From the NCBI GenBank assembly GCA_025450255.1, contig JANWHV010000034.1:1-6561 (forward strand): a stretch of DNA of 6,561 nt, in the 5' to 3' direction. The position numbers and the translations under genes were made by a program. Of this stretch, positions 1 through 6,504 are shown in pieces (position 1 is the stretch's first letter; the number at the start of each line of letters is the position of its first letter). The notes under the pieces are model-generated. The model searched no databases. It was not told the DNA's origin and was given only the letters and a program-made list of their open reading frames with translations. Source of the DNA: Chloroflexota bacterium. Lineage in GTDB: Bacteria; Chloroflexota; UBA5177; JANWHV01.

Positions 1-207
1 ATCGGCCGGGACGGTAAGAAGCTCGGCGAGGCGCACCAGCTTTTCTTCGACATCGAAAGCGGTCTGCTCACGCACTTTATCGTGCGCAAGGGTTTCCTCG
101 TCGGCAAGGACCACGATCTGCCCGCGTCGCTCATCGCCAGTGTCGATGATGGAGTCCTGTATCTGAAATCCGACCTGGATGATCTCCAAGGGAACGGTAC
201 ACGGTAG
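1..207 (+). CDS. PRC-barrel domain protein, 3' end only (5' end outside window)
   Basis: Frame 1 is open from the first base to a TAG at 205-207 and encodes the last 68 residues of a protein. The segment has the alternating strand pattern of a PRC-barrel: DGKKLGEAHQLFFD, then ESGLLTHFIVRKGF, then KDHDLPASLIASVDDGVLYL. The elements are a 'G-K-x-L-G' turn, a strand carrying the 'D..SG.LTH..V' pattern, and a final 'lPasLIaSvddg.vyL' strand. PRC-barrel domains are small beta-barrels found in photosynthetic reaction-centre H subunits, in the rRNA maturation factor RimM and in many uncharacterised stress or sporulation proteins. The family does not give a specific function here. No signal peptide can be judged because the N-terminus is missing. 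The next gene starts 28 bases downstream on the same strand with its own ribosome binding site, so the two are probably co-transcribed. Assignment to the fold is fairly secure; the role is unknown. Confidence 0.8.
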   Translation: MGRDGKKLGEAHQLFFDIESGLLTHFIVRKGFLVGKDHDLPASLIASVDDGVLYLKSDLDDLQGNGTR

Positions 208-235
208 CTTCGACAAAGCAGGGGAGGATAGCGAC

Positions 236-1138
236 ATGGCACTGCACATTGTCTACCAGGATCCGCTATACACGCCGACCGCGCTGCTGGAGCCAAGCAC
301 ACGCGGCTACATCCATATTGCCGCCGAAGTGAGTCCGTCCCCGATACCGCTCCAACTGCCGGCGCGGAAACGGACGCGGCTGCTGGCAAGACTTTCCGAT
401 CTGGCAAGCCGGCTTGAGCAGGTCGACGGCGTCGAGTGCGTCACCATATTCGACGCCCTGGCAATCGCCCCCGCCGGGCGCATGCCCTATATTCGAGAAC
501 GAGCCGGCGCGGTTCGCGTGGCGCGCTTCGACGTCGTGGTGCTCGTCGAGACGACCTCGCCCGAGGCTGCCCGCGCCGTGCGGAGCGCGCCGGAATGCGT
601 GGCGCTGGTTGAGGCGATAAGGAGCGCTGCCACGCACATGCATGTCATGGTGGCCCGCAACGCCAAACGGATTGGCGACGTGGACAAGACCAGGAAGGGC
701 CTTTTCCTGTTCAACTATTTCGTCGCCGACGACGCGCAAACCATGCTGGAGTTGTGGGATTATCTTGCCGGCTGGTATGAAGTGGAGACCGGCCTCGACA
801 ACTCCACGCTGCTGACGCCGCTAGACGGCGAAACGTCGGATTACCTGGCAATCAACAACGCGCGCTGGGACGAGAGCCTGCCGCGCGTGATGTTCCGGCA
901 GCTAGCCAAGAAGAGCTTCCGCACCTATGTGCTGGCGAACATGGAGGCCAATCATGTCGGCGCCATGCCCATTCTGTACCGGCGCGCGCCGCGTGAACGC
1001 CGAACCTTCAAAGCGCCGCCATCCTGGATAGTCGCGCTGGGCGCGACGTTCGCCGCGATGGTCGCGTGGCGTAAGCGGCGTCACGAGCGGCAGCCTGCCG
1101 CTGAACCGGAAGGCAAGGGCGCCAAACGCGCCGCATAG
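236..1138 (+). CDS. Protein of unknown function with two possible ferredoxin-like halves and a C-terminal membrane anchor
   Basis: This 300-residue protein is not one I can name. The start at 236 (MALHIVYQDP) is chosen because GGGGAGG lies just upstream at a normal distance; an in-frame ATG at 179 would overlap the preceding gene and has no comparable site. Two segments read like repeated alpha/beta units. In the first (about residues 25-140), a hydrophobic strand FDVVVLVET is followed by a helix beginning SPEAARAVRS. In the second (about 155-245), the strand GLFLFNYFVAD is followed by the helix AQTMLELWDYLAGWY and then ETGLDNSTLL. This resembles dimeric alpha-beta barrel (ferredoxin-like) proteins, but that is inference from pattern only. 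Near the C-terminus (about 262-278, SWIVALGATFAAMVAW) is one hydrophobic segment flanked by basic residues (RKRRH), followed by a short charged tail. This suggests a tail-anchored protein with the main domain in the cytoplasm. It probably shares a transcript with the PRC-barrel gene 28 bases upstream. Confidence 0.8.
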   Translation: MALHIVYQDPLYTPTALLEPSTRGYIHIAAEVSPSPIPLQLPARKRTRLLARLSDLASRLEQVDGVECVTIFDALAIAPAGRMPYIRERAGAVRVARFDVVVLVETTSPEAARAVRSAPECVALVEAIRSAATHMHVMVARNAKRIGDVDKTRKGLFLFNYFVADDAQTMLELWDYLAGWYEVETGLDNSTLLTPLDGETSDYLAINNARWDESLPRVMFRQLAKKSFRTYVLANMEANHVGAMPILYRRAPRERRTFKAPPSWIVALGATFAAMVAWRKRRHERQPAAEPEGKGAKRAA

Positions 1139-1334: not shown

Positions 1335-2699
1335 CTACGCCAGATCCTGGATCAGCGTCGCGGCCAGTTCCGCGATCGGTACGCGGCGCTGGGTCATGGT
1401 GTCGCGGTCACGGATCGTCACCGCCTTGTCTTCCAGCGACTGGAAATCGAACGTCACGCAATACGGCGTCCCGATCTCATCCTGCCTGCGGTAGCGGCGA
1501 CCAATCGCCTGCGTCTCATCGTACTCCGTGGGGAACAGCGCGGCGAGCGTGCGCCAGATCTGCCTCGCCGGCTCCGTCAGTTCCGCTTTCTTCGAAAGCG
1601 GCAATACCGCGACCTTGTACGGGGCAATCTTCTTGTGCAGGCGCAGGACCGTGCGCGTCTCGCCGTTCACTATCTCCTCGTGGTATGCGTCCACCAGCAG
1701 ATAGAAGAAGGTGCGATCCACGCCGCCCGAGGTCTCCACGATATTGGGGATGTATCGCTCGTTGGTAACGGGGTCGGTGTAACTGAGGTCCTGGCCGCTG
1801 TACTGCGCGTGCCGGCTGAGGTCCCAGTCTCCCCGCCAATGGATGCCTTCCCACTCTTTCCAGCCGATCCCCGGCACCTCGTACTCGATGTCGGTGGCGC
1901 GCTTGGCATAGTGGGCTAGCTCGGTGGGGGCGTGCTCGCGCAGCCGCACCCGCTCGGCGTGGTTGGTCAGGCTCTTGCACCAGACGGCCCGCTCCGCCTG
2001 CCAGTATGCGAACCACTTCTCCATCTCGCTCGGGTGCGTGAAGAACTGCAGGTCCCACTGCTCGAACTCGCGCTGCCGCATGATGAAGGGGCCAAGCGTC
2101 ACTTCATTGCGGAACGCCTTCCCGATCTGGCAGATGCCGAATGGGATGCGCACGCGGGACGACTTCATCACGTTGTCCCAGTCGAGGTAGATGTTCTGGC
2201 AGGCCTCGCCGCGCAGATAGGTCTTCATGCGCTCGCCTTCGACCACGCCAAGCTCGGTTTCCATCAGCAGGTTGAAGCGGCGCGGCTCCATCAGCTCGCC
2301 GCCGCAGGCCGGGCATTTGTCGGGCATGGCGCCGTCATTTTCCTCGATCAGGTGGTCGGCGCGGAAACGCTTGCGGCAACTTTTGCAGTCCACCAACGGA
2401 TCGCTGAAGTTCTCGACGTGGCCGCTTGCCTCCCACACTCGCGGGTGCGTCAGGATGGCGCCCTCGATGCCCACCACGTTCTCACGCGTCTGCACCATGT
2501 ACGTCCACCAGAGGTTCTTGAGGTTCCGGCGCATTTCCGCGCCGAGCGGCCCGAAATCGTAGACCCCGGCCACGCCGCCGTAGATCTCGCTGTTTTGGTA
2601 GACGAAGCCGCGCCGTTTGCAGAGCGAGACCAGTTTCTCCAGCAATTCCGATCCCTCGGGCACGACTACGGTTGTTATCTCGGTTGTCTCGGTCGTCAT
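1335..2699 (-). CDS. glyS: Glycyl-tRNA synthetase, single-chain alpha2 type
   Basis: This class II aminoacyl-tRNA synthetase of 454 residues charges tRNA-Gly with glycine in the cytoplasm. The length fits the eukaryote/archaeal-like homodimeric GlyRS found in many bacteria, as opposed to the GlyQ/GlyS alpha2beta2 enzyme. The N-terminal core includes YGGVAGVYDFGPLGAEMRRNL (about 40-60) and EASGHVENFSDP (90-101). A zinc-type cysteine set follows (C105, C108, C129, C132). Next come the substrate segment YLRGEACQNIYLDW (161-174), motif 2 FRNEVTLGPFIMRQREFEQWD (196-216) and motif 3 ETSGGVDRTF (322-331, with the invariant Arg at 329). The C-terminal anticodon-binding domain starts near APYKVAVLPL (359-368). 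The substrate motif differs from the usual RPETAQG, although its Glu (E165) and Gln (Q168) are kept, and EPSFGIDR is changed to ETSGGVDR. The ATG at 2699 is set by GGAGGAG six bases upstream. The gene stands alone on this strand behind a T-box leader. Confidence 0.96.
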   Translation of the reverse strand: MTTETTEITTVVVPEGSELLEKLVSLCKRRGFVYQNSEIYGGVAGVYDFGPLGAEMRRNLKNLWWTYMVQTRENVVGIEGAILTHPRVWEASGHVENFSDPLVDCKSCRKRFRADHLIEENDGAMPDKCPACGGELMEPRRFNLLMETELGVVEGERMKTYLRGEACQNIYLDWDNVMKSSRVRIPFGICQIGKAFRNEVTLGPFIMRQREFEQWDLQFFTHPSEMEKWFAYWQAERAVWCKSLTNHAERVRLREHAPTELAHYAKRATDIEYEVPGIGWKEWEGIHWRGDWDLSRHAQYSGQDLSYTDPVTNERYIPNIVETSGGVDRTFFYLLVDAYHEEIVNGETRTVLRLHKKIAPYKVAVLPLSKKAELTEPARQIWRTLAALFPTEYDETQAIGRRYRRQDEIGTPYCVTFDFQSLEDKAVTIRDRDTMTQRRVPIAELAATLIQDLA

Positions 2700-2705
2700 G
2701 TCTCA

Positions 2706-2714
2706 CTCCTCCGG
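2706..2714 (-). promoter_or_regulatory. Ribosome binding site of glyS
   Basis: On the minus strand CCGGAGGAG lies six bases before the ATG at 2699. It is a strong Shine-Dalgarno sequence and sits after the leader terminator, so it is transcribed only when the T-box terminator is read through. Confidence 0.85.
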
Positions 2715-2721
2715 TGTGCCC

Positions 2722-2930
2722 GGAAAACAAACATCCCCGGGCCCCTACATCAGGCCCGGGGACGAAAAGTTTCGCGGTTCCACCCCGATTCCCCGCGCCT
2801 GAGCGCGAGGCTCTCGTATCGATTGCGGCTCGGAAGCGCCTTCACCGCGAGCCCCTCACCGGGCTTCCACCAAATCCCGGTTCGCTATGCCTGGGGCCGT
2901 CGTGGCTACTTATCTTCGTCTGCGCCGCGT
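2722..2930 (-). promoter_or_regulatory. Glycine T-box riboswitch (tRNA-Gly sensing leader) of glyS
   Basis: On the minus strand the leader carries the hallmarks of a T-box in order. Stem I closes with GCGGC (2928-2924) against GCCGC (2829-2825). It contains AGTA (2910-2907) opposite GAA in the specifier loop, then an inner stem GCCCC (2897-2893)/GGGGC (2855-2851). At the tip are AGCGA and GGTGGAA on either side of a CCGGG/CCCGG stem. The specifier is GGC at 2840-2838, a glycine codon, followed by G. Stem III is an 8-bp hairpin (2810-2791, TCAG loop). The T-box proper, GGGGTGGAACCGCG (2786-2773), matches the AGGGUGGNACCGCG consensus at 13 of 14 positions. Its UGGA bulge (2782-2779) fits the NCCA end of a tRNA with discriminator U, as expected for bacterial tRNA-Gly. 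No stem II or pseudoknot is seen, as in the compact glyQS type. Uncharged tRNA-Gly should favour the antiterminator, in which GGGG pairs with CCCC at 2761-2758, and so turn glyS on. Confidence 0.95.
2723..2762 (-). terminator. Intrinsic terminator of the glyS T-box leader
   Basis: Read on the minus strand, TCCCCGGGCC (2762-2753) pairs exactly with GGCCCGGGGA (2743-2734), giving a 10-bp GC-rich stem. It is followed by a U-rich run TGTTTGTTTT. The first Cs of its 5' arm are the same bases that would pair with the T-box GGGG in the antiterminator, so the two structures are mutually exclusive. Confidence 0.92.
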
Positions 2931-2955
2931 ATATGCCTTGTGTGTTGTACGTACC

Positions 2956-2964
2956 AGTATACCA
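2956..2964 (-). promoter_or_regulatory. Candidate extended -10 promoter of glyS
   Basis: On the minus strand TGGTATACT has a near-consensus -10 hexamer (TATACT, 5 of 6) preceded by TGn, the extended -10 motif. It lies about 26 bases before the base of T-box stem I, the right distance for transcription to start near 2950. No -35 box is found at the usual spacing. A direct repeat CTGGTA-TA-CTGGTA overlaps the hexamer; its meaning is unknown. Confidence 0.5.
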
Positions 2965-3225
2965 GCGACGGCAACGACGTATGCCCGCGCGCCGCCCTGG
3001 GAGCGCGAGCATCCTTGCTCGCCTTATTTCGCTCCTTCCACGACGTAGGTCATAGTTGCCGTCTACTTGCGCCTGAGTCATGATCTAGGTGGCTGTTGTC
3101 TGGCCGCGCCAGGCCGTCGACGATCGGAGCGCAAGAGGCCCAGGTGGGCATGGCACGCCATGCACTGGTGGCACGTATCCGGCCGATGTGCGGGTTGCGT
3201 GCGTCACGCTCGTAACCATTTGCCG
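2965..3225. other. Shared upstream region of divergent glyS and phosphofructokinase genes
   Basis: No gene is supported in these roughly 260 bases. The region holds a 7-bp hairpin, GCGAGCA (3005-3011)/TGCTCGC (3016-3022), without a U-tract. It also has a 16-bp palindrome at 3148-3163 (listed separately) and two copies of ACGACGTA. Open frames across it on either strand lack ribosome binding sites and recognisable protein sequence. Confidence 0.5.
3148..3163. repeat. 16-bp palindrome upstream of the phosphofructokinase gene, possible operator
   Basis: GCATGGC (3148-3154) and GCCATGC (3157-3163) are exact inverted repeats around a 2-base centre. Imperfect outer arms CCAG (3140-3143) and CTGG (3165-3168) extend the dyad. 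TGGCAC from this element recurs at about 3169 and 3237. It lies about 60 bases upstream of the candidate -10 of the phosphofructokinase gene, a plausible place for a dimeric regulator to bind. No regulator family can be assigned. Confidence 0.4.
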
Positions 3226-4558: not shown

Positions 4559-4617
4559 GAGTTATCGTTCGCCAACGAGGTTCCCCGAGAACGCTCTTGC
4601 CGCGCGTCACGGGCGCC

Positions 4618-6045
4618 ATGCATCCTGAAGCCGCGTATTGGACGCTGCTGTCCGATCATCCTCCCGAGGACGACACGGCGATAGCGAGCCTGCTGGCATC
4701 CTGGCACGCCAGAGGGAAGCGTTCGGTAAACGATCTCTTCGAGCGCGACGCGGATTTCCTGGCGGATTCGCTTGGCGTCGCGGTGGATGCTCTGGCGCCG
4801 CTGCTGCGGCTCCGGCCGCGTCTGACCCAGGCGCATCGCCTGGTCGACCGGCTGGCGCGCGATGAGGTTGAGCTGGTAACGGTTTGGGAGCGACGCTACC
4901 CCAAGCACTTGAAGGAGCTACTCGGCGACGCGGCGCCGATGGCCCTATGGCATGCCGGCCCGCTCAAATTGCTTGATGGGGCGCCGGTTGCGTTGCTCGG
5001 CTCCCGCGAATCGCCGGTCGAAGCACTCGATTTCGCTCACCACCTGGGCGCTGGCCTGGCGCGCGCCGGCCGCCCCGTGCTCACCGGCATGTCACGCGCC
5101 ATTGAGCGCGCGGCGCTTGAAGCGGCGCTTCGCGTAGAAGGTGGCACGGCGATCGTCGTTCTCGGGCAAGGGATCGCCCGCGTGATGCCGGAGCTACGGC
5201 AGTGGCAGCAGGCGATTCGCGGTAATCGCCTGCTTGTCGCGAGCCTCCTTCATCCCGAGGCGGCCTGGCAACCGTGGCTCGAAGCGCTGCGAGGGCTGGT
5301 CAGCATCGGGTTGGCGGACAAAGTGGTGGTGGCGCAGGCGCGCGCCGGCGAGGATGTTTGGGATACCGCCCAGCAGGCGTTGCGGTTCGAGCACGAAGTC
5401 TTCATCCGCGGCGGCGTGGACGCCGAATTGGAGCGGCAAGGGGCGACCGCGCTGCCGGACGGCAAACAAGCGGCCGCCACGGTTATCGGCGTGCAGCCGC
5501 TCCTTGGCCTGGCTGTCGAGGAGCGCGGGCCTGATATAGCAGAGTGTGAGCCCGACGGCGCGGGACTCGCCGAGGGCGGAGGCTTGCCACTGTATAAGCC
5601 GCTGGTTGACGACGGGTCACGCACGCCGGCCATGGCAAGCGATCGGCAGACGAACGGCAAGGCGCCGGACGCGGCTCCGCCAGATTTCCAACTGCTCACG
5701 CCGCCCGTCGCTCGCCACCCGGCAGCCGGCGCACGTCAGCGGGCGAGGGTTGAGCCGCGGTTCGAGATGCCCGCGCCCATGCCCGCGGACCGCGAGACGC
5801 CCCTGGAAACGGTGCTGCTTACCCTGCTGGGACGCGGCGGGAAGACCATCGGCAAAGGCACGCTGCTGCTGGCGCTCGGCGTCGACGAAGCGAGCCTCGA
5901 CGTAGCGCTGGCGGCGCTCATATGCTCCAGAGACATAGTACAGCGCTCGGCCCGCGGGATGATAGGGTATGCCCTTGCCGATCCCAAGCAGGCGGGTCGT
6001 GCTCCTGGCGCGTTTCAGCCGTCACTATTCGGCAAAGAGCCGTAG
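4618..6045 (+). CDS. Divergent DprA/Smf-like DNA-processing protein
   Basis: DprA loads RecA onto incoming single-stranded DNA during natural transformation. This 475-residue protein has the family layout. Helical N-terminus MHPEAAYWTLL (1-11) leads to YPKHLKELLGDAAPMALWHAGPLKLL (94-119). The Rossmann core begins with VALLGSRES (124-132, G128-S129-R130 being the phosphate-binding motif) and includes VLTGMSRAIERAALEAAL (154-171) and AIVVLGQGIARVMP (178-191). A further core segment, GLADKVVVAQARAGEDVWDTAQQA (231-254), ends it. A proline- and alanine-rich, probably disordered linker (about 300-392) joins it to a C-terminal winged helix (395-452). Canonical SGLARGID..AH is altered: Asp becomes Glu163 and His becomes Leu167, and RNRIIAGL is not preserved. 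The linker makes it longer than typical DprA (about 300-380 residues). The ATG at 4618 is chosen because family members begin near 'YW.L'; an in-frame TTG at 4597 is possible, and neither has a clear Shine-Dalgarno sequence. A non-competence SLOG-type sensor is an alternative. Confidence 0.85.
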   Translation: MHPEAAYWTLLSDHPPEDDTAIASLLASWHARGKRSVNDLFERDADFLADSLGVAVDALAPLLRLRPRLTQAHRLVDRLARDEVELVTVWERRYPKHLKELLGDAAPMALWHAGPLKLLDGAPVALLGSRESPVEALDFAHHLGAGLARAGRPVLTGMSRAIERAALEAALRVEGGTAIVVLGQGIARVMPELRQWQQAIRGNRLLVASLLHPEAAWQPWLEALRGLVSIGLADKVVVAQARAGEDVWDTAQQALRFEHEVFIRGGVDAELERQGATALPDGKQAAATVIGVQPLLGLAVEERGPDIAECEPDGAGLAEGGGLPLYKPLVDDGSRTPAMASDRQTNGKAPDAAPPDFQLLTPPVARHPAAGARQRARVEPRFEMPAPMPADRETPLETVLLTLLGRGGKTIGKGTLLLALGVDEASLDVALAALICSRDIVQRSARGMIGYALADPKQAGRAPGAFQPSLFGKEP

Positions 6046-6048
6046 ACG

Positions 6049-6504
6049 CTACATCTGGCTCGCGGTTTGCCAGCGCGCGTGATGCACCGCGAGATGGCAA
6101 TTCTTACACAGCGTGTAGCCATATTGATCCCACGAGTGATGGACCAAGGTGCCGAAATCATCGTCGGACCGTCCATCGGACGTGAGCATCGACCAGGGCT
6201 CGGTTGGTGATCCGCAGAACTCGCAGACATGATTGTCCTGGGTTGCGTTGGCCGCGTGGCGCAAGGCATTGACCAGGCCAACCACTTCCATTTCCGTCAT
6301 CACGCTCGCCAGATGCACGAGCGCGAAATCGATCCGGCTTTTGCGCTCGGCAGCATCCGCCGGTCGAATACGCGCCGTACCGGCTTTATAGCCGGCGCTT
6401 TCCAGTTGGGCGGCAAGTTGCCGAATTACGCTGGCCGCGGCGCTGTTCGCCGACGCCAGATCGCAGCCGTCTCGATCGAAATCCATTTGTCCGTTCGCCG
6501 GCAC
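6049..6504 (-). CDS. Small zinc-binding, HNH-nuclease-like protein
   Basis: The 151-residue protein is not one I can name. The first 90 residues look mostly helical, without a signal peptide or membrane segment. The C-terminal third has HVCEFCGSP (92-100), then TLVHHSWDQYGYTLCKNCHLAVHH (119-142). This gives C94, C97, C133 and C136 in CxxC...CxxCH spacing, plus a His pair H122-H123 and H137, H141 and H142. Two CxxC knuckles around 'VHH' and ending 'lCxnCHxavH' are typical of the HNH (McrA-like) endonuclease fold. The gap between HH and the second knuckle is short, so nuclease activity is uncertain and a pure zinc-ribbon role is possible. The GTG at 6504 is supported by AAGGAG (6514-6519) nine bases upstream; an internal ATG at 6486 has no such site. 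It is convergent with the dprA-like gene, with only 3 bases between stop codons and no visible terminator. Confidence 0.75.
   Translation of the reverse strand: MPANGQMDFDRDGCDLASANSAAASVIRQLAAQLESAGYKAGTARIRPADAAERKSRIDFALVHLASVMTEMEVVGLVNALRHAANATQDNHVCEFCGSPTEPWSMLTSDGRSDDDFGTLVHHSWDQYGYTLCKNCHLAVHHARWQTASQM

Follow-up and report, generated by a model that had tools for sequence, protein, structure and literature searches.

The closest described systems are glycine T-boxes. In Bacillus subtilis, glyQS encodes a two-chain glycyl-tRNA synthetase (GlyRS) and its T-box has a spacer between GAA and the GGC specifier, while the genome of Deinococcus radiodurans, a second point of comparison, is GC-rich. 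The leader examined here shares with the B. subtilis glyQS T-box (RF00230) stem I, a short linker, stem III, an antiterminator/terminator, the GGC specifier and the lack of stem II (PMC6197855, PMC7583486), and the glycine class is described as naturally devoid of stem II (PMC7583486, PMC6197855). In this class the specifier is described as followed by a purine that matters for function, and an RRRxG-stem III-AA motif, a 7-nt UGGN bulge and a G-U pair at the base of helix A2 are described for T-boxes (PMC7583486). Outside the Firmicutes, a glycyl T-box tied to glycyl-tRNA ligase is reported in D. radiodurans (PMC2494555), which belongs to another phylum than our locus and is likened to it by description, not sequence; T-boxes in Chloroflexi were reported in 2008 and 2013 (PMC2494555, PMC3766115). 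A glycine T-box also precedes staphylococcal glyS, and the stem Sa described as a staphylococcal addition to its terminator/antiterminator domain has no counterpart here (PMC9495366). Literature searches joining T-box with Ktedonobacter, or T-box with glycyl-tRNA synthetase and Deinococcus, returned no paper, although the glycine T-box of this group may still have been published.

We analyzed a 6,561-nucleotide stretch of a Chloroflexota genome (contig JANWHV010000034.1, hereafter the window), for which an earlier note had proposed a complete compact glycine T-box at 2722..2930 of the minus strand, upstream of glyS. Its elements are listed below in the direction of transcription. Invariance refers to an alignment of 32 leaders (window, L009 from a related genome, and L021-L050); the -10 element, GAGAG and the ribosome-binding site were read from the sequence.

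2956..2964, minus strand: probable extended -10 element TGGTATACT, roughly 30 bases ahead of the Rfam-matched leader
2826..2927, minus strand: T-box stem I (Rfam alignment, pair list and counts), closed by CGGC 2927-2924 with GCCG 2829-2826
2919..2923, minus strand: 5' side of a kink-turn-like element, GCA bulge then GA, with partner GA 2831-2830 (by eye, from sequence only)
2907..2910, minus strand: AGUA, 5' side of the specifier loop (Rfam alignment; invariant in 32 leaders)
2882..2886, minus strand: AGCGA distal bulge motif (A46, G47, G49 and A50 invariant in 32 leaders)
2865..2871, minus strand: GGUGGAA distal loop motif (G62, U63, G64 and A67 invariant in 32 leaders)
2841..2843, minus strand: GAA, 3' side of the specifier loop (Rfam alignment, leader alignment)
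2838..2840, minus strand: GGC specifier (glycine), followed by G2837
2811..2815, minus strand: GAGAG before stem III, fitting RRRxG, with AA after stem III at 2790-2789
2791..2810, minus strand: stem III, eight pairs (2810-2803 with 2798-2791), loop UCAG
2757..2787, minus strand: antiterminator, helix A1 CGGGG 2787-2783 with CCCCG 2761-2757, bulge UGGAACC 2782-2776
2722..2764, minus strand: intrinsic terminator, with a stem of 13 pairs (2764-2732) and a U-rich tail (2731-2722), TTTGTTTTCC
2706..2712, minus strand: ribosome-binding site GGAGGAG, six bases ahead of the ATG
1335..2699, minus strand: glyS, dimeric-type (alpha2) single-chain GlyRS of 454 aa (NF003211, 588.8 bits; TIGR00389, 478.9 bits; PF03129 and PF00587)

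Each T-box element named in the earlier note was located, and the family matches agree with its single-chain alpha2 GlyRS as the regulated gene, a difference from the two-chain enzyme of B. subtilis. Its emphasis on a GC-rich setting carries less weight than it was given, a glycyl T-box being reported in D. radiodurans (PMC2494555). Elements beyond that note are the kink-turn-like GA/GA, GAGAG-stem III-AA, the A2 G-U pair and the specifier directly after GAA. Elsewhere in the window, the frame at 4597-6045 (plus strand) is DprA-like (PF02481, 87.4 bits; under the NCBIfam cut-off) with a long C-terminal part, and those at 179-1138 (plus strand, 319 aa) and 6049-6504 (minus strand, 151 aa) had no Pfam or NCBIfam match at E up to 0.001.

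A cmscan of the entire window (E up to 1) gave RF00230 as the sole Rfam match. The match spans 2931-2755 of the minus strand and the full model length (1-219), with 70.1 bits and an E-value of 3.9e-14; the earlier note had made its claim depend on a significant hit to this model. The score falls below the Rfam gathering score of 93 bits, yet lies far beyond chance. None of the 32 aligned leaders attains 93 bits (the top score is 87.5), so annotation using this cut-off would omit them all. What would remain is the empty intergenic DNA or spurious 79-residue frame that had been foreseen, and that frame does exist, at 2842-3081 on the minus strand. In 14 control genomes, RF00230 gave matches in five at E up to 0.001, and at E up to 0.1 it also matched Bacteroides and Methanocaldococcus, so weak matches alone carry little meaning. 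Dinucleotide shuffles of 2931-2710 seldom folded to as low an energy as the native sequence (2 of 200; z -2.82). A chance origin of the leader is ruled out by the E-value together with the relatives and pair counts given below. The minus-strand leader before glyS is a complete, compact, stem II-less glycine T-box, a well-known type of RNA switch and no new system.

Within stem I, the kink-turn-like residues G12, A13, G101 and A102 (window leader numbering) are the same in all 32 leaders, and the window's middle stem has an A-C mismatch at one of its pairs. The GGC specifier, invariant in 32/32 leaders, fits the downstream gene, a GlyRS. The following base, G2837, is a purine, as described for the compact glycine class. 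The earlier note had read this G correctly and thought it less usual than A; among the relatives it is the rule, with G in 30 leaders and A in two, although it does set the window apart from B. subtilis glyQS, which has A. A further difference from glyQS is that GGC adjoins GAA directly in the window, one base nearer than in 29 of the 32 aligned leaders; the spacer base is absent in three (window, L009 and L033). If a one-base spacer were assumed after GAA as in those 29, the next triplet in the window would be GCG, making this an alanine T-box. Given the invariant GGC and the GlyRS gene behind it, we consider an alanine specifier exceedingly improbable. The Rfam alignment also lacks this base in three other T-boxes of the related genome G001 (L008, L012 and L013), so the spacer is dispensable in the family.

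Downstream of stem I, the stem II positions of the model are skipped in the RF00230 alignment and only 10 bases separate stem I (2826) from GAGAG (2815). There is thus neither a stem II nor a IIA/B pseudoknot in the window leader, as the earlier note had said in placing it in the compact glyQS class, and the purine after the specifier and the RRRxG-stem III-AA motif are both present. The T-box sequence GGGGUGGAACCGCG agrees at 13 of 14 positions with the T-box consensus AGGGUGGNACCGCG, the count given in the earlier note; the consensus displayed by Rfam is aGGGUGGUACCGCG. Helix A2 pairs GCGAA (2775-2771) with UUCGU (2766-2762) and is closed by the G2775-U2762 pair, so that the leader has both a 7-nt bulge starting with UGGN and the basal G-U pair of A2, the bulge opening with the UGGA previously noted. 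As also proposed, the terminator (2764-2722) overlaps the 3' side of the antiterminator, the shared bases being CGUCCCCG, and L009 has the same arrangement. Calculated without tRNA, the local stretch gave -35.7 kcal/mol for the terminator and -19.8 kcal/mol for the antiterminator, and the 207-base stretch gave -96.3 and -82.0 kcal/mol, respectively. With the terminator about 16 kcal/mol more stable locally, the default state would be off.

A short distance past this hairpin is the ribosome-binding site (2712-2706), as would suit a T-box that acts on translation by masking it. The hairpin ends at 2732, however, and is followed by TTTGTTTT, with GGAGGAG lying beyond. The long stem I is of the kind seen in transcriptional T-boxes, and a U-run follows the hairpin in L009 and in most of the 30 other leaders, though not in L040. 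Control of translation is therefore very unlikely, and a transcriptional glycine T-box almost certainly controls glyS.

By analogy with the known family, stem I would grip tRNA-Gly(GCC), with the anticodon at GGC and the elbow at the AGCGA/GGUGGAA tip. The UCCA end of an uncharged tRNA would pair with UGGA of the bulge and stabilize helices A1 and A2; with both held in this way the terminator could not form and glyS would be transcribed. With charged tRNA, or with none, the terminator, as the stronger hairpin, would be expected to form and end transcription ahead of glyS. A tRNA-Gly pattern was matched in one of eight genomes. The related genome G084, also the source of L025, carries two tRNA-Gly(GCC) genes with U (U73) before CCA/CCG, as UGGA requires. 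The related genome G001 yielded one doubtful tRNA-Gly call among 30 tRNA loci scanned.

For the promoter, a consensus scan requiring a -35 box found no full -35/-10 promoter. From the probable extended -10 element, transcription would start near 2949. TATACT is likewise present 20 bases ahead of the L009 leader, and 26/32 leaders have this hexamer or TATAAT in the 75 bases preceding them.

To place the leader in its phylum, we surveyed 400 sampled genomes, scoring at most five T-box candidates per genome in most of them. T-box matches (E up to 0.001) were present in 360, above the Rfam cut-off in 214, and GlyRS (E up to 1e-40) was matched in 317. With T-boxes common in the phylum and already reported in Chloroflexi and Deinococcus, the window leader belongs to a known kind. 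Loci L021-L050 are the best 30 of the 317 GlyRS matches, all from the class of genome G236; Ktedonobacter and Thermogemmatispora are names among GlyRS matches of similar identity. A T-box lies upstream of glyS on the same strand in all 30. These T-boxes share with the window the site before glyS, GGC, AGUA, AGCGA, stem III and the lack of stem II; they differ in that most have the spacer before GGC and 29 of 30 have a stretch of 44-50 nt in helix A2, compared to 8 in the window. When the window leader was used as a DNA query, none of 47 genomes of this class matched, although 30 carry the T-box by covariance model; the leader sequence has diverged too far for such a search.

The alignment of 32 leaders supports the drawn structure. 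Paired cells amounted to 91.1%, compared to 29-44% after sliding partners by one to three columns, and two-sided changes occurred in 24 of 33 drawn pairs (mean in shuffles, 14.3), counts that are favored by the structure having been drawn on the window, itself among the sequences. None of 500 shuffles attained any of five structure measures. Stem III (helix 6 of the drawing) had 97.8% of cells paired, with five of seven pairs changed on both sides, while helix 4 (59.1% of cells paired) and helix 7, the last pair of stem III on the loop side (40.7%), were not supported. Six leaders (L024, L026-L029 and L032) have a long insertion in the stem III loop.

A sister leader came from G001, a fragmented metagenome-assembled genome (MAG). 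Its contig L009 carries a T-box of 87.5 bits that precedes a glyS start, where the contig ends; the first residues of the frame after the T-box resemble the window GlyRS, and a phosphofructokinase gene, divergent beyond the leader, is 90.9% identical to that of the window. A GlyRS of the window type ends on another G001 contig, L006 (89% over 92 residues). The same MAG has a different GlyRS gene at L015, about 51% identical and lacking an upstream T-box, which points to a second synthetase or to an assembly of mixed origin. Scanned at E up to 0.01, L001 and the six GlyRS loci L015-L020, which belong to the class of G001 and are 46-51% identical to the window's GlyRS, showed no T-box. G001 has ten T-box matches at E up to 0.1; the genes downstream, judged by eye, include an isoleucyl-type synthetase (L007), an anthranilate synthase-like gene (L008) and a serine acetyltransferase-like gene (L014).

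One reading of this pair of genes in G001 is that the GlyRS under T-box control serves as a second copy, induced by starvation, next to a constitutive one. In a fragmented MAG the two may instead stem from different organisms, and the GC contents of L006, L009 and L015 are 0.635, 0.599 and 0.565; the single ribosomal protein S12 in G001 speaks against such a mixture. Among the matches listed, however, the 30 genomes of L021-L050 have one GlyRS each, except G236 with two. We therefore consider a second, induced copy unlikely.

The longer A2 stretch of the relatives is found in 29 of the 30 leaders from the G236 class (L021-L024 and L026-L050), compared to 8 nt in the window and L009 and 14 nt in L025. 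Helix A2 insertions are known in translational T-boxes (PMC7583486). In the relatives, the insert loop (GCCCCRGGC) complements the 3' arm of the terminator at 8 or more of 9 positions in 24 of the 29 leaders and at 6 or 7 in the other five. Compared to the commonest loop-arm pairs, L034 has an A-U to G-C change, and two changes, A-U to G-C plus C-G to U-A, occur in L040. The terminator region of L040 is rearranged: its arm sits further downstream, with a U-run before it and none after. When loops were shuffled 300 times, 2-37 were equally complementary to the terminator in 26 of 29 leaders, and 161, 184 and 159 were equally good in L022, L021 and L040, respectively, a different arm of L040 having been chosen here than in the position count. 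For that count, the patterns that picked out loops and arms were drawn up by hand with the sequences already in view, and the leaders share ancestry; the figures are thus not independent, and we treat them as a lead rather than a result. We tentatively suggest that the insert, with which helix A2 has grown by about 36-42 bases, might act as a pseudoknot lock that keeps the leader antiterminated, or compete with the terminator as a second structure. A stem I stretch of the window that resembles the relatives' A2 loop, GGCCCCAGGC, was dismissed as coincidence, since it is absent at that place in L009.

With these assignments, an otherwise empty leader gains an annotation, and a compact glycine T-box precedes an alpha2 GlyRS gene across a whole group of Chloroflexota. 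The relatives provide a test case for an added antiterminator lock; should the A2 insert prove to act as proposed, the window and L009 would show the lock-free state of an otherwise compact glycine T-box.
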